Assembly: GCA_025526935.1 (NCBI GenBank)
Contig: JAHLKD010000018.1
Coordinates: 248,001 to 312,000 of the forward strand
Direction of reading: 5' to 3'
Length of the DNA: 64,000 bases
Source of the DNA: Cladochytrium replicatum
Lineage: Eukaryota; Chytridiomycota; Chytridiomycetes; Cladochytriales; Cladochytriaceae
In this document: positions 29,710-62,700 of the stretch, one piece after another
How the letters are laid out: each line of letters starts with the position of its first letter
Numbering within the stretch: position 1 is the first letter of the stretch
The notes under the pieces: model-generated
The model's input: the letters and a program-made list of their open reading frames with translations, nothing else
The model's database searches: none
Told to the model about the DNA's origin: nothing
Position numbers and translations under genes: made by a program

Positions 29710-29718
29710 CAGAGACAT

Positions 29719-29764
<46 letters not shown>
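29710..29764. repeat. (AG)n microsatellite at the 3' side of LINE 1
   Basis: An almost pure AG tract of about 55 bp, broken by single C bases, directly abuts the LINE 1 poly(A) (read as poly(T) at 29770-29782 on this strand). Confidence 0.9.
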
Positions 29765-30004: not shown

Positions 30005-33000
30005 TTAAAGATCCACAAATGCAGGGCCAAAGAGGGAGTCTGGAGGAGAAACTTCTAATGGCAGACCCATACAGTGAAGCCAAATCTTATGGAGACAACG
30101 AAAAACTAGACACCACGGTGCAAGATTCACTGGGTTGACAATGCGAAGTGGACGAAGGCTATCAATTGCAACGTCAAGCGGAAGTTGTAAAACAGGAACA
30201 GGAACAGGAGGCAACAATAGGTCAAGACGCAAACATTCTGAAACATGAGATCTAGAGAGAGTTGCAGTGCGGCAGTGACAACACTGCTTGCGGGGGTGAT
30301 AAAACAAACGTCCAAGACGATACTGCAGAAGCCTCAAGATTGAAATAGGGAAGCATGGAGGAGCAATTGCTAGCGCATGAGGGTGTGCAGATGCAAGGGG
30401 AGCAAAGCTAGCAGCTATAGAACCATAGGCAGATGAGGCTACTTGGTGAAAGTGATTTGCGATAACATCAGAAGGTTTGGGAACTACAACATTTGCAGCC
30501 GGGAAGAGGAAGTGATTGTTGAAAGGGACAGGAGAACAACGAAAGTGCTTTCCCTGGTGAAGAAAGAATGACAACATAGAGTGAACCATATCAGGGGCAT
30601 CATCATCCAGCCAACGTTGAAACATCTGAAACTGCAGATATTGAAGCCGAAACTGAAGGTAAGGAACCTTAAAAGACAGTAAAACCCCAGCAATTGAAGT
30701 AGAAAATGAAAGGCGAAGAAATTGACACAAACATTGGTGAATAAAAGTCTGAACTGGTTTGCAAACAGCAACAGAGGGAAGAATAAAATATAAACCAAAT
30801 TCAAGCGTAGGTCGAATAAAAGACAAAAACAAATGACGAACCACAACCAGAGAATGAGAACCAAACATCCTTGAAAAAGAAAGCAAAGCAAAAGAAGCTG
30901 CGCGCGCTTTGGCAAGTCGATGGGAAATAGTCAGTGAAACATCAAATCCAGTATCTCCAAAAAAGCAACCCAGATAACGAAATGAAGGCTTGACAGGCAG
31001 AGGTTGACCATGAAGAAGCAAAGGCGAATGAGCAGGAATAGGAATTTTTGTGAGAATCACAGACTTCAAAGGAGCAAAAGAAAAACCACGAGCTTGGGCA
31101 AACTGGTCACAAACAGAGAGAAGAACCTGCATAGCATCCAAAGTAAGTGCAAACAAGGCCAAATCATCTGCAAATAAAAAAGAATTATATCGTGGTTTGG
31201 CAGGATGAAAGAGTGTTATAGGTGGGGCAAATGGTCGGAGGAGCCCAGGTAGAGGATCAAGAAAAGTGATATAGAGAAGTGGACTGAGAACAGAACCTTG
31301 AAACAAACCTCTAAACAAATCAAAAGCATCTGAAAAACAATTTGCAACAACCACTCTGGAAGAACAAAAATCAAACAGAGACTTCAAAACAAAAACAAAT
31401 GGCAACGGTACTCCCCTAGAAAGAAGCTCAGCCCAAAGAATTGCACGATTTGTGGTGTCATAAGCTGCTTGAATATCTAAAAAACCAGCAACCCAAGGAA
31501 CCTTGGCATTAGACGCACGGGAGATACATGCCTGAAGACCAAAAACACATTCCATTCCCGAGCGGTGTGACTGAAATCCCGCTTGGGCAGCATCAAGTGG
31601 GCGTTGAGACGTGATAGCAGAATAAAGATGTGGCAACAAAGCTCGCTCGAAAATTTTTCGGGCAACAGACGAAAGAGTAATGGGGCGATAATTAGTAATA
31701 TCACCAAGCGTACCACGTTGCTTCCAAACTGGGTGCAAAAGCCCAAGATTCCATGAAGTGGGTGTAAGACTACTGCGAAAAATGGACTGAGAAAGTTGCA
31801 GGAACAATGGAGCAAGAATAGCTGAAATTGGGCGATAAAGTTCTGCAGGCAGACGATCATGACCCGGGCAGACTCCAAAGGGCAGTCCCTAATAGCTAGA
31901 ACAAAAGCTTCAACATCCAATGGCAGCTGAAAATCACACAGAACAATTGAAGGTGAAACTGGGTCAGCAGCTTGAGCATTGTAGACACTAGCAAAATGAT
32001 CAGAATATTTGGCTAAAGACTGAGGATCAAAATCCAAACCATTAGCTGAAGTACGAAAGTTAGCGCAGCGCCGAGCATGAGACACATGTTTCAGAAGAGA
32101 AGGCACTGATGAAGAACTAGGGTCATCAAAAAATTTGCTTTTGTCTTACGCCTGTGTGATCTCAGAGCTGATTTGAATGCTTTGTGACAATCACGTTGGC
32201 GAGTTCTTAGAAAAGGAAGAAGAGGGTCAGAAGAATTGTGGTGAAAGAGGGAATAATAGTCACGGAATGCTGAACGAGCCTTACTACGCAACAAAGCAAT
32301 CTCAGGGGGCAGAGGAGTGGTCGCTGGTGCTCTACGACGAGGTGTTGGTGGTCCCAATGTCAGAACTGCTGTTGCCTCAACAAAATCAACTATAATTTGA
32401 AATGCGGAATCAATTGCTCCCTGGGCCACTGCACGAGAAAGAGAAGTCCCCACAGGGACCTGAAGTGGTTCCAATGCTGCTGTTAGCGCCTCTGATGTTG
32501 GAGGAAGCAGAATCTTAGCAGTTTCTCTGTGCGACTTACAAATAACTTCATCCTTTAACAATCGGAGATTCCAAGAAGGTAGAGGAGGAGGCACAGTGGC
32601 CTGAGGATCTGGGCCAGCTAAAGAAAATGAACAGGTCACTGCAAAATGGTCTGAAGGATGGGGAGCCATAGACTGGGGTTGATCATGCACTAAATAAGAG
32701 GAAGCTATCACATAAGTAGAAGCAAAAAACAAATCAATAATTGAACTCCCTAAGTGGGAACGAAAAGTTGAGCGACGAGCTGAAGAAGAAGCTGGGACAA
32801 CCAATGAAAGTGAGTGGGCTGTAAAAAAGGAAGAAGTGCTCTGGCACGGGCATTAGTAACATGATCACCAGTGCTCTGAGTTCTAAAATTGAAGTCACCC
32901 ATCAAAACTACTGGTGTATCCGAATTCGAAACAAATTGAGGAAAATCAGATAATGCACCCAAACAGTCTTCCGCAGTCCAACGTGGGGGAAAATAAAATC

Positions 33001-33310
33001 CACCAATCACGACCTGACGAAACCTAAACCACAAACCAAACCCAGAAGGAACTGATGCAATCAACCTAAATTGATAAGTACTGCAACGATGTGGGTTAAT
33101 AAGAAGAGCAACACCAGATGCCAAAGGAGCGTCTGGTGGAGGACGAGAATCAAACAACAAATACTCAGAAGAAACACTGTCTAAAGTTAACTGATGAGTT
33201 TCTGTTAAAACTAAAAAATCAAGCTGATGAGTAACAAGCCAAGCAAGTAAATCTGAAAAATCCAGAGGCAAACCTCTACAGTTGAAGGTTCCAGAACGAA
33301 AAGTCCACAT
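30005..33310 (-). pseudogene. LINE 1 ORF2: endonuclease-reverse transcriptase, frameshifted
   Basis: The frame starts at ATG 33310 with an APE-type endonuclease: FRSGTFNCRGL, LTETHQL, VVLMGDFNFR, and SIIDLFF and SDHFAV in the next frame after a shift near 32,790. Further shifts near 32,100 and 31,800 lead into the RT: NYRPITLSSVARKIFERALL, DAAQAGFQSHRSGMECVF, FLDIQAAYDTTNRA, GLFQGSVLSPLLY and the catalytic FADDLALF. The C-terminus has a C-x2-C-x8-H-x4-C zinc cluster (CCHCRTATLSRSHVSEC) at about 30,290-30,230. No RNase H domain seen. At least three frameshifts make it non-functional. Confidence 0.9.
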
Positions 33311-34579
33311 TAATTGCGAGATGTAGGTTCAGAACGCGAAGAACGGGCTAAAGAAACAGTAGCTTCAAAGTCTGCAGCAGGAAGATTAGAACGAAGATAA
33401 TGAAAAACTGCAGGATCATGAGTAATTCGCAAGAGGTGAGCAAATCTTAAACTCAGCAGTGTTACGCCCAATAAAACTAATATGGCGAATGTCACGGGAA
33501 AATTGAGGGTTTCCAGAAATTCGATTAATCAGAGTGCGGAGCTGATTAAGTGGCTGACGACTAATTTCCTTAAACCTCACAGTAGCAAAACCAGCAGCAC
33601 GATCACGAACAGGCTGAGGAGGATTGATCAAAATTGGTGACTCAGCCGGGTAATCAATCACCAATCTGGGTGGCCGTAGTGATCTGCGAGATAGGGGGTC
33701 CACTCCAGCAACCACTGAGCGATAAAGGGCGGGTTGAGCATCTGCTTCGGCAGCTTCAATACGAACAATAGCATTTGATGCACGAGAGGCAAATTTTGCA
33801 GTGCTGAAAGGCCCAGGATTGCGAGTAGCAGGGGCAGGTGGCGGTCGGCTAGCACTCGCAACTTGAGCATAGGAAGGCACGGCAGAGACAGCAGCAGGAG
33901 GGCAGCTGATAGTTTCAACCAACGGAACTACAGCAATAGTCAATGCAGCAAAGAAGGCAGCCTCAGTCTCTGGTTCCAATACTGGGAGAAATTGCATTGC
34001 ACGAGTGAAAGCAGACATCACTAATGGATGAGATCCAGAAGTTTGAGCAGGGGCCAGCATATGCAGAGCATCCAAGAATCGGTCACGAGGAGTAGGCAAG
34101 GGAGAGGTAGCATGATCAGCTGCAGAGGCATTCTTCTCGACCCTGGCACGAGAGGCAGGTCGGCGAGTCGGGGGTGATTTTGATGCTCGACGTTTCCCTT
34201 TGGGATCAGCATCAGCAAGGGTAAGTGACATTTTGACTGTATCATTCATGTGAACATCTACGACACTTGCGGGGGATCTTCCTCTAATTCGAGGCGGTTC
34301 TGAAGTGGATGACGCTTGGTCACGTGATCGTGAGTCACGTGATTCGCGAGGAGAATTCACTTCATCTGCCCACAGAAAATTTTCTCCATCAAAGTTGCTG
34401 GGCTGAGAGTCAGGAATGTTTTCCTGAGGGGCGCGAGGGTGGGACACAGAGGGAGCACGGGAGCGAGCACGGCCAGAAGCGATGAAAATTTTTGAGGCGG
34501 GTGCGGCGGGCGGCGCGGCGGGCGGCGCGGCATGCGGCGCATCAGGCGGCTGCGCAGGCGGAGCGCTGGGAGGCGGCAT
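33310..34579 (-). pseudogene. LINE 1 ORF1 (nucleic-acid-binding protein), with internal deletion
   Basis: From ATG 34579 the frame encodes a Pro/Ala-rich N-terminus, a Ser/Arg-rich middle and a conserved block RDIRHISFIGRN (about 33,490) also found in LINE 2 ORF1. The frame then stops. The tail continues in another frame as ITHDPAVFHYLRSNLPAADF to SRN and TAA at 33312-33310. LINE 2 has about 50 extra residues between these blocks, so LINE 1 carries a deletion that shifts frame. The final TAA overlaps the ORF2 ATG by one base (TAATG). Confidence 0.8.
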
Positions 34580-34586
34580 TGATTTG

Positions 34587-34661
34587 AGAGAGAGAGAGAG
34601 AGAGTGAGAGAGTGAGAGAGTGAGAGAGTGAGAGAGTGAGAGTGAGAGGGTGAGAGAGTAA
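34587..34661. repeat. (GA)n / GAGT microsatellite at the 5' side of LINE 1
   Basis: Alternating GA with regular T substitutions. It doubles as the apparent 5' leader of LINE 1 on the minus strand. Confidence 0.9.
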
Positions 34662-34664
34662 CTT

Positions 34665-34972
34665 GACCTCATAGTGGCTCAGTCGGTACGAATGCGACTT
34701 TTCGAAGCTAAACTCCGCGGTTCGAATCCTATAGGGGACTGGATTCGAATTTCCTACGAAATATATCTCTCGCAATATCGTGTCACGTGCAAGTACCGCG
34801 CCACACCTCCTTCGATTCGCCATTGCCTTCGCTCCTCTTTCCTACGGCTCGCACGGCTCCCCAAGTACTGAAGATTCCAAATCTTGGTTGAAGTACACGT
34901 GGGTGACATGTACTGATTAAGCATTGTCAATACATGTTATAACATTCAAAAAAAAAAATAAAATAAAAAAAA
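34665..34972 (+). mobile_element. tRNA-headed SINE with a LINE-derived tail
   Basis: The head has an RNA polymerase III A box, TGGCTCAGTCGG at 34675-34686, and a perfect B box, GGTTCGAATCC at 34719-34729. The surrounding sequence does not fold as a functional tRNA (no matching acceptor stem). The body ends with TTCCTACGGCTCGCACGG at about 34840-34857 and a 3' segment ending in an A-rich tail at 34949-34972. Both tail segments match the 3' UTR of LINE 2 (44,932-45,054), so this SINE probably borrows the LINE 2 reverse transcriptase. Confidence 0.75.
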
Positions 34973-35095
34973 TTGCGCGCTTCCCTATGTGCTTCTGAAC
35001 GACCATCTTGTAAGGCACTTTGGGTGTTGTTTATTGTTATGCATTGTATGTGCAAATAAATAAATAATATTGTTCAAAAAAAAAAAAAAAAAAAA
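34973..35095 (+). mobile_element. 5'-truncated tail of a LINE 1-type element
   Basis: About 100 bp followed by a 20-bp poly(A) match the 3' UTR of LINE 1 (29,783-29,885 on the other strand), including GACCATCTTGTAAGGCACTT and TTATGCATTGTATGTGCAAA. It follows the SINE tail directly and precedes LINE 2. Confidence 0.8.
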
Positions 35096-35905
35096 TTCAC
35101 CTCCGGTTGCCCCTGTGTCCCGCCATGATGATGCTGTGTGCCTTCCCCCTAGACAACTGCATGGTATTCCTTCAATTCAGGACGATCTTGGGAACTCTGG
35201 TGCTCCTGGCCCTCGCCCCCCGTCTAGTCGACCTGCCCCACGTGGACATCGTGGTCCACGCACTTATGCCGCTGCTGCTGCCAATGCCCGTGCCCGTGTA
35301 CTTGAGAGTCTCCCCACACTGAGTGCTGAATCTCGTACAGAAGCTGTCAGGACTGCCCTTGCTGGTCGTGACCCCACTTCGAATGTCAGCCTTCGTGGCC
35401 CTCGGCCTGTCGTATTCTATCCTCCGACCTCTCCGCTGCTGGTCTCCCCACCTGCTGATCTTCAGGCCCGTGTGGATGATTTGACCACTGTGTACATCAA
35501 GGACATCATGAGACAGTGGCTCGGCTTTGTGCGGACCATGCTGAGGGCCCTCTTGGGCGATGAGGTGGTGCGTGGTATCCGCCACATCAGTTTCGTTGGT
35601 CGCAACATTGCTTCCTTTATCTGTATTCGCTCAACCGCAATTGCTCTCCGTGCGCACTTCTCCACCCAGGAAGCTTCCACTGACGAATCAAACCCTGACT
35701 TTCTTCGCCGAGCCTCTACTCTGCCTTTGGAGCAGCGGGAGGCTGCGGTCAGGGAAGTTGTCCACAAGAGATATGCACATATCCTCAGTTCAGTTACTGA
35801 TCCTGCTATTTTCCTGTATGTCCGTGGTCAGCTCCCCATGGATGCTCAGGAAACTGTGCTGGACAGTGCCCGCGGGATTGCGCGTCAGCCTCGCTCAGCC
35901 CATCT
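35096..35905 (+). pseudogene. LINE 2 ORF1, 5'-truncated and interrupted
   Basis: The frame is open from the poly(A) junction. It encodes an Ala/Pro-rich start and then the conserved blocks RPVVFYPPTSPLL, VRGIRHISFVGRNIASF and DPAIFLYVRGQLPMDAQE shared with LINE 1. The natural end (A-H-L-R-Q-stop) is split by the hAT insertion at the target duplication 35898-35905. There is no start codon of its own, because the 5' end of the element is missing. ORF1 proteins of such LINEs bind RNA. Confidence 0.8.
35898..35905. repeat. hAT target-site duplication, left copy
   Basis: GCCCATCT, identical to 41524-41531. Eight bases is the diagnostic length for hAT transposons. Confidence 0.92.
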
Positions 35906-35920
35906 TAAGGATCGGCGGGT

Positions 35921-36064
35921 TTTAGGGTCTTTCGGGTCGGGTCCGGGTCCATTGACTAAATGTACCCGACCCGAGTGCCGGGTTTTCATGGAAAATTTTC
36001 GGGTCGGATCCGGGTCGGGTATCGGGTCCAGTAGGAAAACCCTTCTCGGGTCAAAAGTCAGACC
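35921..36064 (+). repeat. Left subterminal CGGGTC-rich region of the hAT
   Basis: CGGGTC/GACCCG hexamers recur many times on both strands, as in subterminal transposase-binding regions of hAT elements. A matching GC-rich block lies at about 41,350-41,508. Confidence 0.75.
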
Positions 36065-36114
36065 CGAGTAAAACCCGATGTGATAGAGAATCTAAAACGA
36101 AGCTATTGTTCTTT

Positions 36115-36900
36115 CTGTCCACGCGGACACTTTCCAAGAAGACGCAATATAAGTTTTGTATGTATCAAACAATTTTGCATCACAACGGACATCGAGGCAT
36201 GTATTTTCTGTCCACCCGGACACTTTCTCAACTCATTGACGTACTTCAGTTATCTCTACCCAATACAACTAACCTCTCTATCAATGTTACTAGCAATAAG
36301 ATTCTGTCCACCCGGACACTTTCTTAACTCATTGACAGTACTTGAGTGATCTCTATCAAGTACAACTAACATCTCTATCAATGTTACTAGCAATAAAATT
36401 ATGTCCACCCGGACACTTTCTCAACTCATTGACGGTACTTCAGTGATCTCTATCAAGTACAGCTAACCTCTCTATCAATGTTACTAGCAATAAGATTCTG
36501 TCCACCCGGACACTTTCTTAACTCATTGACGGTACTTGAGTGATCTCTATCAAGTACAAACTAACATCTCTATCAATGTTACTAGCAATAAGATTCTGTC
36601 CACCCGGACACTTTCTCAACTCATTGACGTACTTCAGTTATCTCTACCCAATACAGCTAACCTCTCTATCAATGTTACTAGCAATACGATTCTGTCCACC
36701 CGGACACTTTCTCAACTCATTGACGTACTTCAGTTATCTCTACCCAATACAGCTAACCTCTCTATCAATGTTACTAGCAATAGGATTCTGTCCACCCGGA
36801 CACTTTCTCAACTCATTGACGTACTTCAGTTATCTCTACCCAGTACAACTAACCTCTATCAATGTTACTAGCAATACGATTCTGTCCACCCGGACACTTT
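36115..36900 (+). repeat. Left array of 96-bp tandem repeats
   Basis: Each unit contains CTGTCCACCCGGACAC, at about 36208, 36304, 36498, 36596, 36692, 36788 and 36882 (one variant copy at 36401; a diverged copy at 36115). Spacing is 94-98 bp. The core is a short inverted repeat, TGTCC-N4-GGACA. Unit bodies are near identical, so the array is young. Confidence 0.92.
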
Positions 36901-37009
36901 CCAAGAAGTCACAACGGAAGTTCTGTAACAAACAATTTCTACCACGACAGACCTCGAGAGCTGTGCTTTCTGTGCACCTGGACATTAGAGTCGGTAACGT
37001 TCCAGCCAC

Positions 37010-39456
37010 ACCACAGCAAAAATGGACGCCCGCCTTTGTTAAACCAAAGCGTAAGGCAGCGTCCGACGCAAGCCAAAGACTAGTGGACAGTCATCCGCTT
37101 GACACACGGAAGCGAAGTCTGCCAGCCCCCCAAATTTCAGAGGCGTCCAGCGAGGGGAACATCATGCAGGACAAACGCAGACGTGTATCAGGACACTGTG
37201 GCAACAACAGCGCTCGAGAGCCGAGCTCCACATCTTCTTCCAATGACTCCAGCGAGTTGGGCCCGGCTTCTCAGCATGCACCACAGCTTCCTGCCGACGT
37301 TAGTTTTGCTGACTCTTCAGTGCGACAGGAGCCTGCAGCTGGATCAGTTCAACCATCAATGCTTTCATCAGACGCAGATGTTGATAGCATGTCGGACTGT
37401 AGAGGTAGTCGAGGCGGCATAGCGAAGGATTACTATAAGGTTGATAATGGTCTGAGAACATGTTTGGTTGCGAAATGCAAGTGGAGCCAGAAGGTCGATA
37501 AGACGGGATCAACAAAAAACTTCCTCCGGCATCTGAAAAACCACCATGGAAGTATTGCCAGGTCGCTTGGACTGTTGGACATCGTCCCCAAGGGACAACA
37601 GACATTGAATTTCGGCTCGCAGGAGAAGGAGCAAAACTTTGTGTTCAATCCAGACGTAGCGTGGCGGTCGATTTTGGACTGGATTGCTGCAGACAATCAG
37701 GCTTTTACTGTTGTGGAGAACGAGTTCTTTGTCAGCATGCTGAAGACTTTTCAGCCAAACTATACACCAAAGACGGCAAAAGCAGTGAAGCAAAAGGAGA
37801 TGGATCTTTACGATAGGCAGAAGGAGCTCATTAAAGGTCTGATTGTTGGTTCGCCTTCAAAAGTATCAATAACAGCTGACTGTTGGACATCGAAGAACCA
37901 GATTTCTTTTCTTGGAATTACTGCCCACTTCATCACGAAAGAATGGGAGCCGCAGGACTTGCTGCTGCAGATGATTCCGATGGTTGGAAAGCATGAAGGC
38001 GTCGCCATGGCTAGTCAGCTTGTCAAGTGTCTGGATGAATTGGCATGCTATCGGGTGAACGCTTATTGTGCATTACAACCGACAACGGTTCAAACAACTT
38101 TACCATGAGTGCTAAGCTGGAGACGCTCTTGGAAGATAGGGATATTGCGTGGTCTGCAGAAACTCAACACATGCGGTGTATGGCACACATTATCAATCTT
38201 GCAGCAAAGGATTTTATCGATACATTCGCGCCCGCAGGGGACACAGTCGCAAATGACGATAACTCCGGCGTTAATGTCATAAACCTTCTTCGACGGCTAG
38301 TCAGAGGAATCCGGTCTTCCCCAAAACGACGAAGCTCATTTATTGATTTGTGCCGATTTGTGAAACTGGTTCCTCTATTACCAATTATCGATGTGACAAC
38401 TCGCTGGAATAGCACGTTCTATATGGTCAAACGAGCCTTACAGCTACGAGAGGCAATGGACAAAATATGCTGGATTGAAGATTCTTTGAAAGATTGGTCA
38501 ATAAATCCAAAGCAATGGGAGGTCCTACAGAAGATCCGGGATGGTTTGAGTGTTTTCGAGGTTATATCAAAGGCAATCGAAGGGTCTAGATATCCAACAC
38601 TTCCGCTTGTTATTCCATTTTACAACGATCTTATCGATCAACTGGAGGACCTAGAGGATGCAGAATTAGATGAAACTTTCACCAAAGCATTTCGAAATGC
38701 ACTAGATAAGCTGAGAATATATTACTCAATCGCTAAGAGCCCGTGTTTAGCAGTTGCTACGGTACTCGATCCTCGTTTTAAGGATCAATATTATCGATTT
38801 TCAAAGGCTTGGGAGAAAGATGTAGGAAGGGATCAGGTCACCCTAGTGCGGAAAGTCTGGGAGGAATCGTATAAGTCACGGAAAATCAAGAACAGTGGTG
38901 CCGATGTTTTTGGAAACACGCCAGAACGTCGACACGATTCGAGCGGAGCTTCCGGTGATAGACAGAAAAAACGGACGCTGAACGCTTGAGAGCCATTAGA
39001 TCCGTTTTCATCTGGCAAGAAGAGATTCCTGAGGAAAAAGATGAGCTGGATCGCTATCTTGGCGATCAGGTACTCCGCGGTATTGATTCTGATGGGAAGC
39101 CAATCAATATTATGGACTGGTGGAAGACCGTTGGAAGTGTGAACTTTCCAGCCCTAAGCCAGATGGCAATGGACTATTTAGGAATACCAGCAACAAGCGC
39201 TCCAGTCGAACGAAAGTTTTCAGCCGGGGTTGATTTGGTACCTGCAACTCGCAACCGCCTTGCTCCAAGAACAATAAATGCGTTGATGTGCCGTCATGAC
39301 TGGTTGCATCAATTGAGTGCGGAAGAAACCGTTCAAAATGATTCCCTAGATTCAAAAAGTGATGTTAGTGAGGATTTTGTAAAGGTGCATAATTTTGGCG
39401 AGGATTTTGATGTGGTATTAGAGTTGGAAGCAACTGATGATAACCCACTCTTTTAA
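37010..39456 (+). pseudogene. hAT transposase, two frameshifts
   Basis: Reading in order: a basic, Ser-rich N-terminus; a BED-type zinc finger near 37,460-37,560 (CLVAKC...HLKNHH); the RNase H-like core with TADCWTSKNQISFLGITAHF; TTDNGSNN and MRCMAHIINLAAKDF; WNSTFYMVKRAL; TVLDPRFKDQYY. The C-terminal hAT dimerisation domain has DWWKTVGSVNFPALSQMA and ATSAPVERKFSAG. Frame changes near 38,050 (just before the TTDNGSN block) and near 38,970 (in a run of A) split it into three frames. The true start is unclear; the part of the first frame upstream of about 37,010 merely translates the tandem repeats. The copy is probably inactive unless the shifts are sequence errors. Confidence 0.9.
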
Positions 39457-39499
39457 ATATAAATTGTTGTTTAGACTGTTCATCTGTTGAAGTACCGTC

Positions 39500-40302
39500 C
39501 AGGAGTTGAGAAAGCGACCGCCTGGACAGAATCCTATTACAAGTAGTATTTGTAGAGAGGTTGGTTGTACTTGATCGAGATCAGTGAAGTATCAGTGAAG
39601 TACCGTCAATGAGTTGAGAAAGTGTCCGGGTGGACAGAATCTTATTGCTAGTAACATTATTAGAGAGGTTAGCTGTACTTGATAGAGATCACTGAAGTAC
39701 CGTCAATGAGTTGAGAAAGTGTCCGGGTGGACAGAATCCTATTGCTAGTAACATTGATAGAGAGGTTAGTTATATTGGGTAGAGATCACTGAAGTACCGT
39801 CAATGAGTTGAGAAAGTGTCCGGGTGGACAGAATCCTATTGCTAGTAGTATTTGTAGAGAGGTTAGCTGTACCTGATAGAGATTACTGAAGTACCGTCAA
39901 TGAGTTGAGAAAGTGTCCGGGTGGACAGAATCGTATTGCTAGTAACATTGATAGAGAGGTTAGCTGTATTGGGTAGAGATAACTGAAGTACGTCAATGAG
40001 TTGAGAAAGTGTCCGGGTGGACAGAATCTTATTGCTAGTAACATTGATAGAGATGTTAGTTTGTACTTGATAGAGATCACTCAAGTACCGTCAATGAGTT
40101 AAGAAAGTGTCCGGGTGGACAGAATCTTATTGCTAGTAACATTGATAGAGAGGTTAGCTGTACTTGATAGAGATCACTGAAGTACCGTCAATGAGTTGAG
40201 AAAGTGTCCGGGTGGACATAATTTTATTGCTAGTAACATTGATAGAGATGTTAGTTGTACTTGATAGAGATCACTCAAGTACCGTCAATGAGTTAAGAAA
40301 GT
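39500..40302 (-). repeat. Right array of 96-bp tandem repeats, inverted
   Basis: The same unit as the left array, on the opposite strand: GTGTCCGGGTGGACAG at about 39622, 39719, 39816, 39913, 40009, 40107 and 40204, with a diverged copy near 39,515. The last unit is cut short at about 40302, where the cargo frame begins. The two arrays are mirror images around the transposase. Confidence 0.92.
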
Positions 40303-41223
40303 GATGAATTGGGCAGGGCGGGTGCATTGATTCAGCACGGCGAGCACGAAGAGCTAGCAAGATTCAGGGAGATCACCGCCGCAATGGAAAGGGAGAAGCA
40401 GGCAACTTCCCAGGAGATTTCACAATGGAAATCACGTGTGACCGCCCTGGAGGGAGAGCTTGCTGCTCTGAAACGACAGGCTGGTCATTCAGAAGCTGCA
40501 GCACCTGCGGCGCCAACATCAACAGGCGGCCTAATAAGCATATCGTCGGCTATCAAGGGGATTGGTAGAATTCCGAAGGTACATCGAACCAGTTCTCCAA
40601 CGAGTTCCCTTGCATTGCTTAGCCTGCAGCAGCATCGTCGTACGGCTATCCTTTTGGTGAAAGAGGTCATCCAGGGTATCTGCTTCCAGATGCATAAGAT
40701 CAATGAGGTTATTTATGACCTTAAATTGCCGTCTCTTCCACCAGCAATCAAGTACGTCAATGTAAACTACGAAGTCCTCTCCCGAAATGAGTTTTTACGG
40801 CCCATATTTGTTGAATCAGACGACCGCTCAAGCCGAATATCAACTTCAAGTAGCAGTTCTCGGAGCAGCCTTACTCTTCTTAGGGTGCACATTTTGCTCG
40901 GAAACTGGATACGGCACAATAATTCGCTAAGTACGTCTGCCACTATCTATCGCATGTTCAGGGCATTAGTGGATGCATATCCTTCTGAGTGGCTAAGGTT
41001 CTGGACGGCATACATCGGGCATCTTTCGTCCATAACGCTCCCTGAGGTGGATTGGAAACCTTGGAAGACAGGTTTAGCCAAGGATTTCATGCTTTCAAAT
41101 GACGACATTGATCGGTTCATCAGGACTGGGTTGGCGAAGGACGTAACCAGTGGTGGATGGGACTCTGACGATATGAACCAGATACAGAAGCTGATTTGGG
41201 CTGTTCCACCTATCAACTTGTGA
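40303..41223 (+). CDS. Cargo ORF inside the hAT, unknown function
   Basis: An intronless open frame of about 300 codons from the repeat junction to TGA at 41221. No ATG lies at its very start; the first in-frame ATG is 40384 (MEREKQATSQE), giving about 279 aa. The N-terminus is a short coiled coil, followed by a Ser/Thr-rich linker, then a probably folded helical region (AILLVKEVIQGICFQMHKIN ... LLRVHILLGNWIRHNN) and a Trp-containing C-terminus. No family recognised. A diverged copy of the array core lies beyond its stop (CTGTCCACACAGACAC, about 41,276), so the gene is inside the element. It could be a second transposition protein or a captured host gene; lack of introns contrasts with host genes here. 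Confidence 0.6.
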   Translation, partial: DELGRAGALIQHGEHEELARFREITAAMEREKQATSQEISQWKSRVTALEGELAALKRQAGHSEAAAPAAPTSTGGLISISSAIKGIGRIPKVHRTSSPTSSLALLSLQQHRRTAILLVKEVIQGICFQMHKINEVIYDLKLPSLPPAIKYVNVNYEVLSRNEFLRPIFVESDDRSSRISTSSSSSRSSLTLLRVHILLGNWIRHNNSLSTSATIYRMFRALVDAYPSEWLRFWTAYIGHLSSITLPEVDWKPWKTGLAKDFMLSNDDIDRFIRTGLAKDVTSGGWDSDDMNQIQKLIWAVPPINL

Positions 41224-41349
41224 TTGCTCAGTGGAGTTTTGTTTCTTTTTACGATAGTGTTTCTAAAATACACACTGTCCACACAGACACAAAGTGTTCA
41301 TGTAAATATCCGTGGTCTAACTCAAAATTCAATCAATCCTCTCCTGGGC

Positions 41350-41508
41350 AGCAAAAACCCGGCGGGTCAGGGTCGGGTACGGGTTTCAACCACTTCGGGT
41401 CCGGGTATTCCCTTTGTACCCGTCAGTGACCCGGCGGGTCCCCAGACAAACACGACCCGACCCAAAGGGTTTGGTGCGGGTCGCCACTGAAACCCGGACC
41501 CGACCCGG
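41350..41508 (+). repeat. Right subterminal CGGGTC-rich region of the hAT
   Basis: Multiple CGGGTC/GACCCG copies in both orientations next to the right terminal inverted repeat, mirroring 35,921-36,064. Confidence 0.75.
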
Positions 41509-41523
41509 ACCCGCCGAACCTTA

Positions 41524-41531
41524 GCCCATCT
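41524..41531. repeat. hAT target-site duplication, right copy
   Basis: GCCCATCT, identical to 35898-35905. Confidence 0.92.
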
Positions 41532-41537
41532 TCGTCA

Positions 41538-44500
41538 ATGATTAGTGTTCGAGTTGGTACCTTCAATTGTCGCAATTTGAGCTTTGGAGTTCTTGATTCA
41601 CTGTTTCGTTTTATGCGCGCAAATCACATTGTTTTTCTGCTCCTGACTGAAACACACCTTTTTCCTTTAGACCCGCTGCCTTCTCCAGATTTGATTTTTG
41701 ACACTCGTTTTTCTCCTGGGTCATCGGGTACACGACGGGCTGGTGTGGGAGTCTTGATCAATCGCAGTCTTTGTAGAGCTTCTGATTTCTGTCTCGTTTC
41801 TAGTTATGGTGGCACCTCTCTATGGTTTACATTTTGTGGGCTTTTGGTTGGAGGGTATTATTTGCCTCCGTGTGGTATTGCTCAGGACCCCTTCCTTGAA
41901 GAGTTTATTGCTTCACTTCCTCAACATGTCCCGTCGTCTCCGTGCCCTGTTCTTTTGTTGGGCGATTTCAATGCCCGTTTTTTAGCTACTGGTGATCATT
42001 CTTCAAATCGTAGGGGTAGGTTGTTTGAGCAATTTATTTCTGCCGCTAGTTTCTCTCTAGTTAAGCACCCTTCCTGTCATAACCCCACATTTTCTTCTCG
42101 CAATGGTGACTCCATTATCGATTTGTTGTTTGTCAATCCTCTGCTTCAATGTGATCCTATTTCTTACATAGTTCATAGTCGTCTAGCCGACGGCGAGTTT
42201 ATGCCTTGGGCTTCTGACCATTTTCCGGTTACAGCTGTTTTTTCATTTGCTCCTCCCAATGCCAGCGCTCCCTCTGCTGCACCCCCCCACAAGCGCTGGG
42301 CTGCTCATCTGTTGCTGCTGTCTTTCAAGCAATGGAGGATGTGGGACATTTGTTTTTTGATCCCACCCTTGCTGATGTCAATGCTGCACTCAGTCCAATT
42401 TTAGAAGCTCCCGCCTTTGCCCAAATGTCTGTGGATGTTGCACAGGGATGTATTGACTCTGCATTGGATATTATTTTGTCCTTTGTTACTTCCTGTGCTG
42501 CTTGTGTCATTGGACCCCCCAGTTTAGTTCGCCGTCGCCCTGCCCTGCCATTGTTGCCGCCGCATTTAGTGGCCTTGCGACGGAGCTACTTACTTGCTCA
42601 TAAGCACTATTTAGCTGTTTCTTCCTGTGATGATCCTGATCCTGGTTTAGTTGAGTATTGCCGCTTGGAGCGTGACCGGCTATCGCGTGAGCGTGGCAAA
42701 GCTTTTCGTACTTGGTCTCTTTCTCAGCGAGCTCGAGAGGCTTCTGGCAACAATATGTTTAGTTCTTCTCCTAGTTCTTTAACCGAGGTTAGCAAAGTTC
42801 TTTCCACCGCGCGTAGGTGTCATCAACGGCGCTCAGCTGCAAGTGGTTTATTGTCTGATCCTGCCTCTTTATCTCATTATCGCAATCACTTTGCCTCCGT
42901 TTATCAGACTCAGTTTGCACAATCCTCTGCCAGTGCAGAACACGTTCGTCTACATGCGCTGAATGATTCTGTGTCAGTTAGTGTTAGTGACTTTGTTTGT
43001 GCTATTCGTTCTTCCCCAAACAACTCTGCTCCTGGCCCAAACCATATTCCAGCTGAGTTATTTAAGCCGTTAGCTTCTGATGTTGCTATCCTTTTTGTTC
43101 AACTTTCAAACGCTATTTTCCGTTCAGGTTTGTCGCCCTCTGCCTGGAATGCTGGCTTGTTGTTACCTGTTTGGAAGAATAAGGGTTCCATTGGTGATAT
43201 TAGTCAGTACCGCCCCATTACTTTAACCAATGTTGATAGAAAAATCTTTGAGCGTACCCTGCTTCCTATGCTTGTAGCTCATGTTGGTAAACTTGATCCC
43301 GCCCAAGCTGGTTTCCAGGCCAATCGTTCAGGTGTTGAGTGTGTTTTTGCATTAGATGCTACCCTTCGACGGGCTTCCCGCACTGCTCTGCCTTATTGTG
43401 TTACTTTCTTAGATATTAAAGCAGCGTATGATACTGTGCATAGGCCTCTTTTGTGGGAACGTCTTCGTCAATTTCCCAGAATTCCAAACCGTTTGATCTC
43501 TGTTTTGATGAGTATGTTTGATCGTTGTTCTTCTCAGGTTGTTATAGAGAATCGTTCTTCTGATTTGTTTTCGCTTCCACGAGGTCTTTTTCAAGGTTCT
43601 GTTTTGTCTCCGTTCTTGTACTCAGTTTTCATCAATCCTTTAGCACAGCTCCTTCGTCGTGAATCTTCTCATCTTGCTAGGTTTTCTTATAACACTCCTG
43701 TTTTCAATTCGTTGTTTTTTGCTGATGACATAGCTTTGTTTTCTGCCACCCCTGAGCAAGCCCAACGTGCATTGAAAATTTGTGAAGATTTTGCTTTAGC
43801 TTCTCATTTTGTGTTTTCACCTTCAAAGTGTGCTGTGTTATCTTCTCAACGGTTACCCACCCCCTTGAAGCTTCATGGCTCTGCCCTCCCTGTAGAGGTT
43901 TCATTTAGATACCTTGGTCACTATTTTACTATTGAAGGGTTTGATCTTGCTGCAACTATTGATCATCGCTTAGAGAAAGCTCGTGCCTCATTGTATCTTT
44001 TTGCACCTTATGTCTCGTACTTTGGTGGGTCTGCTCCTCGTGTTGCCAGGTTGTTGTTTTTGTCTTTTATTAGACCTTCACTTGAGTTTGGTTTAGCACT
44101 TATTCGGCCTTCCACTGCTCAGCTTCAGGTACTCGAGCGTTTTTGTTATCATGCACTGTGTCGTCTGTTTTCGATAGCCCATACCACTTCGCGTGTTGGT
44201 TTGTTGCTGTTAGCGCAAATTCCTACTTTTGAGTTCAGGCTGAAGTACCTTCAGGCACGTATGTTTGCTCGCTGGTCTAGTGATTCCAGCCCTCTGTTAC
44301 CAGCTGCTGTGTTGCAATTCTATCGGTCATCTCCAGTCGGTTATGGTTCATCTCCTTATTTTTCCGCTTGTCACAATGATCTCATTGTTCCTATGCCTGT
44401 TGTGCTCCCACTTCATCCGTTGATGTTGCATTTTCAGTCTTTAGCTGTTGCGCATAATGGACCAATTGCAGTTTCGTTTGCCCCTGTCCGCAATTTGAAA

Positions 44501-44911
44501 CTTCGCCACCCTTTGTTGCTACCCCCACACCAACATCTCCCAACAGTATGTCTTCGTTTGTTCCTGCTATATCGGCTTGGCCGCCTGTTTCCAAACCCCC
44601 GACCTTATTGTAGGAACTGTCATGATGCCCCTGAAGTGTCGCGTGCCCATGTCTCTGTGTGTCTACATTTGCGTGCTAGTTTGTCTGCTAGTTTTGATTT
44701 AGGCCCGCCTGACGATCCCCGCCTACCTCTTGACATTGCAATTGATATGCTTTCACCACGGCCTTTTTATCCTTCCCCTGCCTTTTCCCAGTGGGTTCTT
44801 GTTCTTCGTGCACTTAACCGCATTTGGTCAAACTGTCTTGGTTATGAGTTAGTTTTGTCTCCAGCTCCTGATTGTATCTTGTCTGCTTTTGTTGATTTGG
44901 ATATGCCTTAG
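41538..44911 (+). pseudogene. LINE 2 ORF2: endonuclease-reverse transcriptase, one frameshift
   Basis: From ATG 41538: the APE-type endonuclease with RVGTFNCRNLSFG, LTETHLF, VLLLGDFNARFLATGDHSS, SIIDLLF and ASDHFPVTA. Near 42,330 the frame shifts by one. The RT then reads APGPNHIPAELFKPL, QYRPITLTNVDRKIFERTLL, PAQAGFQANRSGVECVFAL, FLDIKAAYDTVHRPLL, LPRGLFQGSVLSPFLYSVF and the catalytic FFADDIALF. A C-x2-C-x8-H-x4-C cluster (CRNCHDAPEVSRAHVSVC) lies near 44,610-44,665. The RT frame itself is intact to TAG at 44911, so this copy is younger than LINE 1. Confidence 0.92.
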
Positions 44912-45068
44912 TGTTTTGAAACATTTTACTTTTCCTACGGCTCGCACGGCTCCCCATGTGCTGCCAATTTACGTGTATTTTTACACTTGTATTTGGATTT
45001 TGCACCAGCGGGTGATATGTATTGGTTGGACAATAAATACATATTATGAAGTTCAAAAAAAAAAAAAA

Positions 45069-59781: not shown

Positions 59782-62700
59782 TCAGATCACAAACTCCCCG
59801 TTCCGCAACGGCAACCTCGGCAAACACTCCAAATAAAGCCTCTTGAATCCCCAAATATCCCCCTTCACCCGCTTAAAATCGACCACATACAACCCAGCAA
59901 GATTCTTAATCTTGTGAATCTCAACCGTAAACCTCACCTCCCCACCCACCCAGCTCAAAGGCGACTGCTGCTGCTGCTGCTGCTGCTGGAACTGCACCAC
60001 GCTCTGCACGTCCTCCGCCCCCGCCGCAGTCCCAAACAACACACTCCCATTCCCGTTCCCACTGACGCTCCCCTGCCTCGCAAACACAAACGAGCTCCGA
60101 CTCCGTGTGGACACAGCGTCTCCCAAACCCTTCACGTTCGGCGATGTCCCGAGCTGGCTCATGCTCGTCACTGTCATCTGACTCTCCTCCCCAAACGCTC
60201 CAACCCCGAAACTCACGCTGCTGCGAACACCCCCAGGCTGCATGTAAAACATCTGCCCGGCCCCAGGGCCCATCCCCATTCCGCTGGTGGCCGCAAGGTA
60301 CGCCTCCGTAGCCATCCGGTCCACTTCAACAAGCCGCGAGTCGCCTTTCCCGTCGTACCCCTTGTTCCACGACCGGCCGTGCGAGGCCATGTACTTAATC
60401 CGCTTGAGGAACGAGATCGGCATCGATGCAAACATGTTCGCCATCGCCCGCTTGCTCTTGTTCCGCTTCATACCGTTGGTCGATGGCGACCCGATCGATT
60501 TCACGTCGATAGACACGCGGGGCTGCGACGACGGCACCGGCACGGGTGACGCCGGCGCGGTCGGGAATGGTGCCGCCTGCATCTGCGCTTGCTGGAACAC
60601 GCTCGCGCCTTCAGACTCCCGTCCGAAACTCACAGTGTCGTCGTTCACAGCCATACTCTGCCGCCTCAGCACTGCTTCTTCCCCACCTACCCCGTTCACC
60701 GTCAACACGCTCATGTTCCAGTCCGAATTCGAAAAGATGCTGCCCACCGCACCATGGGTCACCACACCGCTAGGCGACCCGCTCTCGCTCCTCCGCGGTC
60801 GGATCACCTTCAACTTCATATCCCCTTCCTCACGACTCACAACCAACCCAAGCTCTTCAAGCACATGCGCAATCTCAATGATCAACAACTGCGGCGCCTT
60901 GCTCGTCAACGCGCGACGGTCGAGTGGACCGCTGTGGTACTTCAATTTCGCCACAACGGCGCTGTTCGGCGCGAGCCCGCCGCCGGGGCTGTTGTGCAAC
61001 GAGGATCCAGAGCTGCCCGCGCGCTTTGGCGCCTTGTTGAACATTGACACACCAAACATCGACCCTTCCTTGCCGTTGTTGATGCTCCCTTCCCGTACAG
61101 AGCTGCTCGTCGTCGACGCGTTCATGTACGTCTCCGAGTACGACGAGCTCGCGGCTTGGAAGCTCGGCCTTCCGACCGCGATCGAGCTGGCATTCCCGTT
61201 CGGAGTCGCAACGCTCAAGTTCGTGGTCGAGTCCGACACGACCGAAAGGTTTTGCCTCGACACCGCCCCGTTCGAATTCTGGTACGGCAGGTACACGGCC
61301 GAAGTTGACGTGCCTGCAGTTCCAGTGAGGTACATTGTATGTCTTGTGCCGTTGCCGATGACAGGCGAATGCATTCGCGTCGGGCTCTCAGTCAACTCCT
61401 CATCAAACATCGACACCGCGCGTGTCTTTGTGCCGCGGCGCTTAAAGATCCCAAACACTTTCGGCTTACGTCCTTCCGAAGTGCTCATGCTCCTCGAAAC
61501 GTCCACGCTCGCACGGCCGACACCGTCCACAGTAGGCGAGCTGCGCGTGCTCGGGGTTCGCGTAATGTCCATGCTGTACCCTTTGCGTTCCTGCACAACA
61601 ACCACACGTGGTTTTGGTGCAGGAACTGCAGCCTGGGTCACATGCGACGGAACAACGCTGTCTGCGGGCGGATTCGCGTCGGCGTCGTCCACCATCGGCG
61701 TGTCCTCGATGACCGTAACCTCCGCAATGGCTTCCGTCGGAACTTCCAAAGTGTCCGTGGGAGCGTCCAAAGTCGGAGCTTGGACTTCAGCCTCGTCCAC
61801 GTCCATCGCCTGCACCTTCTCCGCGCCCTCTTCGACAACAATATCCATGGGACGGTCTTCCTGCGTCGGCGTCGACGGTCCCTCGAGCTCATTGTCAGTC
61901 GCAAACAAGCTCTCCATAGTCTGGCGAACACCCTCTGGCGCAATAACAGGCTGGATCTCCAGCCCCGCAGTGGTGCTCGCTCCCGCGACCGGCACGGCAG
62001 GTGCATCCCGCAGCGTGCCTTCGACTTTAGGCGTCTCTGGCGGGGATAGCATGGCTGAAGGTGTGCTGACAATGACCTTCATTGGCGTGGGCGTTGATGG
62101 CTCAGGAACTTCAGCCTCGACAGCTACTTTTCCAACCGAAGTGCTTGGAACTTGTTGAACGGGAGCGGTGTCGCTTTCTACAGCCACGTCTGGCATAGGT
62201 GTGTCGACTGGTGCGGACGGTATAGGTGTGGTGTTGTTGAGACGTTCTTCTGGTGCTGGAGTTGCTGTAGGGGTAACGTACAAACCATCTTCCACCTTTT
62301 GCCCAGAAAAATTTTAGCCGCCGGAGGAAAAGCAAAACTATAAATGCAGAGCAACGTACGTCTTTTGCAAGAGCAGCGGCTTCCTCAAAGATGTAAGCGT
62401 AAGGAGCAAGCCATCTGTAGTATAATATTGTCAAAAGGAGGGTCATTCGAAGAATTATTTTGTGTCTCCGCACCTATGTGACATGACATCCTTCATTTTG
62501 GCACGGTACTTTGGGTCCGGCACCAGCATCTTTCGGAGCATGCTGCGGGCATCGTTGCTGACATAGTCCGGGAATTCGAGCTCGGTTTCGAGAATGTACT
62601 TGTACAGAAGGTTGATGTTGTCACCCTCGGGGTTTGCTGGGTCGTCGTCGAACGGAAGATAACCGCAGAGCATGGCGTAGAGGATGACTCCGCAAGACCA

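Follow-up and report, generated by a model that had tools for sequence, protein, structure and literature searches.

Maize Ac is a transposon with one gene. Elements of the hAT superfamily move by cut and paste and leave hairpin ends on the donor DNA, and Ds-del forms are mobilised in trans by an autonomous copy. Ac and its Ds relatives, including the internally deleted Ds-del forms, are described as hAT elements with short terminal inverted repeats (TIRs), 8-bp target-site duplications and subterminal repeats that are bound by the transposase (PMC3260210). For Hermes, from the house fly, imperfect TIRs, subterminal repeats and a preferred target nTnnnnAn are reported (PMC10368747), whereas the target given for Buster is nnnTAnnn (PMC3517528). 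A fungal hAT element from Pseudocercospora fijiensis, with 8-bp duplications and hundreds of copies, is described as carrying a recognisable host histone H3 sequence, as inactivated by repeat-induced point mutation (RIP), and as having no insertion-site bias (PMC6710886). Two open reading frames (ORFs), one of them the transposase gene, are given as usual in PIF, another cut-and-paste superfamily that makes mostly TAA/TTA duplications (PMC2528002). Here we describe a hAT element of the chytrid Cladochytrium replicatum that interrupts a long interspersed nuclear element (LINE) on contig C18, within a 64,000-nucleotide stretch of DNA (hereafter the window, meaning the whole stretch analyzed), and that belongs to a family whose fuller members carry a second gene (gene 2).

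The element shares with Ac/Ds the short TIRs, the 8-bp duplication and subterminal repeats, and differs from them in its two genes and long inverted 97-bp arrays; by structure, with an internal deletion and both ends kept, the window copy can be classed as Ds-del type. Hermes is the nearest solved transposase by sequence, for the C-terminal part only, and has a similar target bias and similar ends. Its transposase is shorter, however (612 aa vs. 811 aa here), and the C. replicatum family has in addition a second gene, tandem arrays, and a BED-like region that is one usual cysteine short. Like the P. fijiensis element, this family is fungal and holds extra gene sequence, but here the extra gene is an orphan that is open in many copies, and the insertion sites are biased. 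The likeness to PIF, drawn from its description, consists of the two ORFs, in a different superfamily. The layout of two genes and inverted arrays is a hAT variant for which we found no description, although a search of open-licence titles and abstracts for C. replicatum transposons, or for a hAT element with a second gene and inverted arrays, is a weak demonstration of absence.

Our overall explanation, to which we assign a probability of roughly 0.88, is that a member of a two-gene hAT family inserted into the LINE, that the window copy is an internal-deletion derivative, and that gene 2 is accessory. In this reading, a cut-and-paste element of Ac/Hermes type, recently active in C. replicatum, entered a LINE copy of apurinic endonuclease (APE) type, probably moved by the family's own transposase; the derivative keeps both ends and the transposase gene, whereas of gene 2 it retains the 3′ half alone.

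The insert measures 5,618 bp (35906–41523), which matches exactly the coordinates proposed in an earlier sequence-only reading of this DNA. One end reads TAAGGATCGGCGGGT and the opposite end the inverse of TAAGGTTCGGCGGGT; each is 15 bp long, within the range of 5–27 bp given for hAT TIRs (PMC3517528), and 14 of 15 positions match. An 8-bp duplication, GCCCATCT, flanks the element on both sides, and the borders of a real hAT insertion are thereby confirmed. In the fused LINE, ORF1 (283 codons open) terminates with a TGA (41539–41541) that lies within the ATG of ORF2 (41538–41540), restoring a four-base ATGA overlap and, with it, the ORF1/ORF2 junction that had been named as the insertion point. 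The element and the LINE around it comprise the following features:

35064–35905, plus strand: part of the LINE ORF1 frame that precedes the insert, uninterrupted across the A-run at 35076–35095
35898–35905, no strand: left target-site duplication GCCCATCT
35906–35920, plus strand: 5′ terminal inverted repeat TAAGGATCGGCGGGT
35934–36020, plus strand: 5′ subterminal repeats of GGGTCGGG/GGGTCCGGG type, 4 starts
36206–36901, plus strand: forward tandem array, ~7.2 units of 96 bp, most with the dyad TGTCC-N4-GGACA
37022–39456, plus strand: hAT transposase gene; intact copies have an ORF of 811 aa, and the frame is disrupted in the window copy
39591–40303, minus strand: reverse tandem array, ~7.4 units of 97 bp
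40302–41223, plus strand: 3′ part of gene 2, nt 762–1683
41370–41512, minus strand: 3′ subterminal repeats of CCCGACCC/CCCGGACCC type, 6 starts
41509–41523, minus strand: 3′ terminal inverted repeat (TAAGGTTCGGCGGGT, inward reading)
41524–41531, no strand: right target-site duplication GCCCATCT
41532–41541, plus strand: LINE ORF1 end, with its stop TGA at 41539–41541 overlapping the ORF2 ATG at 41538
41538–44911, plus strand: LINE ORF2 with endonuclease (PF14529/PF03372) and reverse transcriptase (PF00078); its frame is interrupted near 42315

Copies of the LINE without the insert were sought in the C. replicatum assembly (50.5 Mb, 198 contigs) with a 234-base query in which both flanks were fused around a single GCCCATCT. 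Among the 40 matches scored out of 153 first-look candidates, 34 were 100% identical across the 234 bp and the remaining six were at 99%. Many LINE copies carry one GCCCATCT and no insert, as the sequence-only reading had predicted. Taken together, the ends, the duplication and the empty sites show that the element inserted into an existing LINE copy by an 8-bp staggered cut. The empty copies, along with ends and duplications found across the family, also uphold the claim that the hAT is younger than the LINE copy.

The 15-base end, in either version, occurs exactly 458 times in the genome (226 forward, 232 reverse) compared to 0 for its reversed control, so the ends are not a product of chance. 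Over the first 200 bp, the 5′ ends were 100% identical in all 40 of the best-scored places among 395 candidates, a set that represents the best matches and not a random sample. Up to 7 kb of sequence was taken from each of these 40 places as a family sample; one place is the window copy, and several are cut by contig ends. Based on the 458 exact ends and the identity of the 40 scored ones, the family looks like a very young burst in C. replicatum. According to the 200-bp 5′ flanks, eight of the 40 copies are nested in further copies of this element; for at least eight (the window copy included, and L011 and L016 possibly representing a single locus), the flank matches one or the other of the two LINEs in the window. 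The 38 distinct 5′ octamers have T at position 2 in 22 cases (p = 4e-5) and A at position 7 in 19 (p = 0.005), relative to a local background of 26% T and 29% A; both occur together in 13, and two of the 38 fit nnnTAnnn. This bias corresponds to the Hermes pattern nTnnnnAn, not to that of Buster, and judged by target bias alone the family would fit the Ac group.

When ends were paired by eye among the first 100 listed places, element lengths ranged from ~0.5 kb (C7:209925-210458) to >7 kb, and the family seems to include short derivatives; the greatest distance read between paired ends is 9.3 kb, in copy L037. Two further places, L038 (C23:465000-470910) and C8:8080-13990, are both exactly 5,911 bp end to end, and L038 is without the gene 2 start. 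This may be another deletion derivative that has moved, the two copies being equal by length. At C97:68854-78500 (L061-L062 and L018), gene 2 of an older, ~10% diverged and frame-broken copy is interrupted by a young copy flanked by a matching CGGCATAC duplication.

In many other copies the transposase is encoded by a single intron-free frame that is open over 819 codons, giving 811 aa when counted from the first ATG. The protein contains PF05699, the C-terminal hAT dimerisation region (E = 2.2e-20, above cut-off). D286, D354 and E730, which we take to be the catalytic DDE residues on an RNase-H fold, are invariant across an alignment of 12 hAT proteins, and three residues of the BED-like region, C152, H170 and H175, line up with positions that are ligands in related proteins, with C147 nearby. 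Protein matches at E ≤ 0.001 numbered 131 (120 listed); the 11 best (31–37% identical over 61–84% of the transposase) are RICESLEEPER/ZBED-like hAT proteins of Rhizophagus and other fungi, compared for the transposase only, and their sources include Entrophospora. Among solved structures, its relatives are limited to four distinct transposase sequences (two carry the name Hermes), which match residues 694–759 only. With an expectation of 28% silent changes and with codons that carry several changes dropped, 10 of 21 transposase variants shared among young copies are silent (p = 0.04), compared to 33 of 133 found in one copy only, which is near the neutral expectation. Family-wide ends, 8-bp duplications and this transposase together support the superfamily assignment made in the sequence-only reading.

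Several observations nonetheless pull against our explanation. The octamers beside both ends, in the 19 copies with a readable 3′ end, are identical in 12 and differ by one mismatch in one, and are different in the other six. Copies lacking 8-bp duplications had been named beforehand as a reason to abandon the hAT insertion; such copies do occur, while the duplication holds in the 12. Two of the six have a 3′ octamer identical to the one found 5′ of a different sampled copy (L027/L035, L046/L045), a pattern that points to exchange between copies, or to joins made in repeats during assembly, as opposed to another mechanism; the remaining four are without explanation. Within the protein, PF14372 (hAT RNase-H) scores 23.6, under the 27-bit cut-off, there is no Pfam BED finger, and the second cysteine of the CxxC is replaced by S155. 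The window copy's transposase frame in contig C18 is itself broken by five one-base length differences. Lastly, the element is 5,618 bp long here and ~7 kb in fuller copies, exceeding the figure of “less than 4 kb” given for hAT elements (PMC3517528). That figure can be read as the usual size and not as a strict definition, given that the H3-bearing hAT of P. fijiensis is described as ~9.5 kb (PMC6710886).

Other copies show a fuller form of the element, ~7 kb long and with two genes. It runs from a TIR through GGGTCGGG-type subterminal repeats and the forward 96-bp array to the transposase gene, then through the reverse array and two forward units to the 560-aa gene 2, and closes with subterminal repeats and the second TIR. 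The arrays consist of a 96–97-bp unit on either side of the transposase gene, mutually inverted and variable in number (units were counted by their core, with ≤1 mismatch allowed). Between 5 and 16 forward units lie 5′ of the transposase in the 35 countable copies, 20 of which have 8. On the 3′ side, the 20 copies that could be followed as far as gene 2 have 4 to 18 reverse units, and L037 has at least 31. In 19 of the 20 copies so followed, gene 2 is preceded by two forward units. Within the window, the two arrays are perfectly complementary to each other over 409 bp, and the exact dyad TGTCC-N4-GGACA occurs 16 times, every one within the element.

Compared to this layout, the window copy has lost nt 1–761 of gene 2 (the first 253 codons), the leader, and the two preceding forward repeat units. 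The sequence-only reading is partly supported as a whole, but it was wrong to call the element complete: the start of the second gene is missing. Failed gap repair is the model for the internal deletions of Ds-del elements, and incomplete repair of an excision gap would be the likeliest origin of the deletion here. The junction (~40302) has its left side in the reverse array and ~2 bp of common sequence at the join, and in a genome search it occurred only in the window and at C24:3103-3130.

At C24 the element occupies the same position in the LINE and is bordered by GCCCATCT as in the window, apart from one additional base on the 5′ side. A second place that shares site, octamer and deletion is what would be expected if the hAT-bearing LINE had itself retrotransposed, leaving C24 as a daughter element. 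The match extends upstream of the LINE, however (34403–35201, 99.75%, 0 mismatches, two gap letters), and we reject a daughter copy, which we regard as highly improbable, on the grounds that identity continues beyond the LINE start. From the same upstream match, C24 appears to be the window locus assembled twice, or a segmental duplication. Overall, C24:1850-9050 repeats window positions 34403–41570; the assembly is redundant there, and both versions have one-base length differences in repeats.

This second version of the locus bears on whether the window copy is actually intact, with the short gene 2 and the broken frames being assembly errors. All five transposase length differences are absent at C24, and they outnumber substitutions 5:1 in the window copy, whereas the 41 aligned transposase stretches together have 54 length differences (L011 and L016 account for 29 of them) vs. 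240 substitutions. The deletion junction, on the other hand, is present in both assemblies, and the flanks and target duplication agree, so the gene 2 deletion is likely real, and an intact window copy is improbable. As the second assembly of the locus lacks them, the frame breaks are probably consensus errors in C18; alternatively, the differences between C18 and C24 could be allelic. Spliced introns were ruled out as their source by the many copies with one open 819-codon frame. Errors also occur in the C24 copy: the 245 columns aligned on its 5′ side include 4 mismatches and 11 gap letters. More generally, one-base frame breaks in repeats of the C. replicatum assembly should not be taken as evidence of decay without a second assembly of the locus. 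The deletion may have preceded or followed the insertion, as the assembly contains no second independent insertion with this junction.

Gene 2 is a 560-aa ORF (1,683 nt) located downstream of the transposase in other copies. Of the 40 places sampled, 21 include its start; many of the others are cut off by a contig end or by the fetched length. Of 1,100 candidate matches in the genome, 78 were scored; these are near full length and ≥96% identical, and 55 of them have no internal stop. An exact core word of gene 2 occurs 181 times in the genome, as frequent as that of the transposase (173). Gene 2 also occurs in the host copy of nested L018, which is 9–12% diverged and in which gene 2 is frame-broken. 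Relative to this diverged copy, 40 of 100 single-base codon differences are silent (28% expected, p = 0.008; 11 multi-change codons dropped).

Fungal hAT capture of a host gene is documented in P. fijiensis, in the form of histone H3 (PMC6710886), and gene 2 might likewise have been acquired from the host by transduplication, as a passenger with no role in transposition. We consider this a substantial possibility, at odds of about one in three. It would agree with the absence of any Pfam family above cut-off and of a significant selection signal among young copies, where 6 of 18 shared gene 2 variants are silent (p = 0.40), with no significant excess; among variants in one copy only, 48 of 140 are silent, near the neutral expectation. 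Against capture stand the silent excess relative to the diverged copy, the equal frequency of the gene 2 and transposase core words, and the lack of a host homologue. No homologue was found at E ≤ 0.001 among 7,997 scored candidates, a search of limited sensitivity in which true relatives may be displaced by coiled-coil words, and from which proteins <0.55 of the length of gene 2 were excluded. The 304-aa piece of gene 2 in the window gave partial matches to three C. replicatum gene models and nothing else.

We lean slightly toward gene 2 as an accessory gene kept by selection, a little better than an even chance. The points that count against a role in transposition are that it rests mainly on co-occurrence with the transposase, that no solved relative was found (best E 0.86), and that the fold model of the 304-aa piece (pLDDT 43, mostly helical) is unreliable, besides the Pfam and young-copy results above. 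The accessory protein would perhaps bind the dyads of the arrays, and could regulate the element or help to assemble its ends. A more specific proposal, which we hold only tentatively, at less than one chance in three, is a two-component hAT: the gene 2 protein would be a partner encoded by the element, and its binding sites would be the TGTCC-N4-GGACA dyads in the inverted arrays. If that were true, array length could set the level of transposase expression or of end pairing in a dose-dependent way, much like TnpA in En/Spm, and the window copy, which keeps its transposase gene without a whole gene 2, could not move alone.

The LINE that carries the insert encodes an endonuclease and a reverse transcriptase in ORF2 and has an A-rich 3′ end (the A-run at 45055–45068), by which features it can be assigned to the APE type. 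The copy looks 5′-truncated, since the ORF1 frame crosses the A-run at 35076–35095 and its first ATG lies only about halfway along. The LINE copy is itself damaged, apart from the insert: compared to a copy at C44, ORF2 has a 7-bp deletion near 42315 that breaks the frame. With the 859-aa part of ORF2 as the genome query, 21 of 56 listed matches fell within a 1,163-codon frame (two of the 21 with a stop), as compared with 897 codons for the frame of the window LINE.

A second, diverged LINE lies head to head with it on the minus strand (30005–34672), with reverse transcriptase and endonuclease domains, an ORF1-like frame of 418 aa, and ORF2 split into several frames. Three A-runs (34948–34958, 34965–34972 and 35076–35095) are immediately upstream of the insert-bearing LINE, two of them following TTC like the LINE's own tail, as if LINEs had inserted beside older LINE tails. 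Between the two LINEs is a tRNA-like stretch at 34675–34729 (TGGCTCAGTCGGTA ... GGTTCGAATCC), which was not called by ARAGORN (bacterial setting) or Rfam; the tRNA and Rfam scans of the whole window returned 0 and 0. There are microsatellites of AG at 29711–29764 and of GAGAGTGA at 34586–34659, the latter at the start of the ORF1 frame of the minus-strand LINE. Farther along, an 837-codon ORF on the minus strand (59782–62295) with a kinase-associated KA1 domain is probably a host gene.

The insertion event itself is routine. The dozens of empty LINE sites offer exact before-and-after pairs for the hAT family, and the family, a young hAT burst located in an early-diverging fungus, is more useful than the single insertion. 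Two genes separated by long, near-perfect inverted arrays of variable-number tandem repeats raise testable questions about accessory proteins in hAT transposition.

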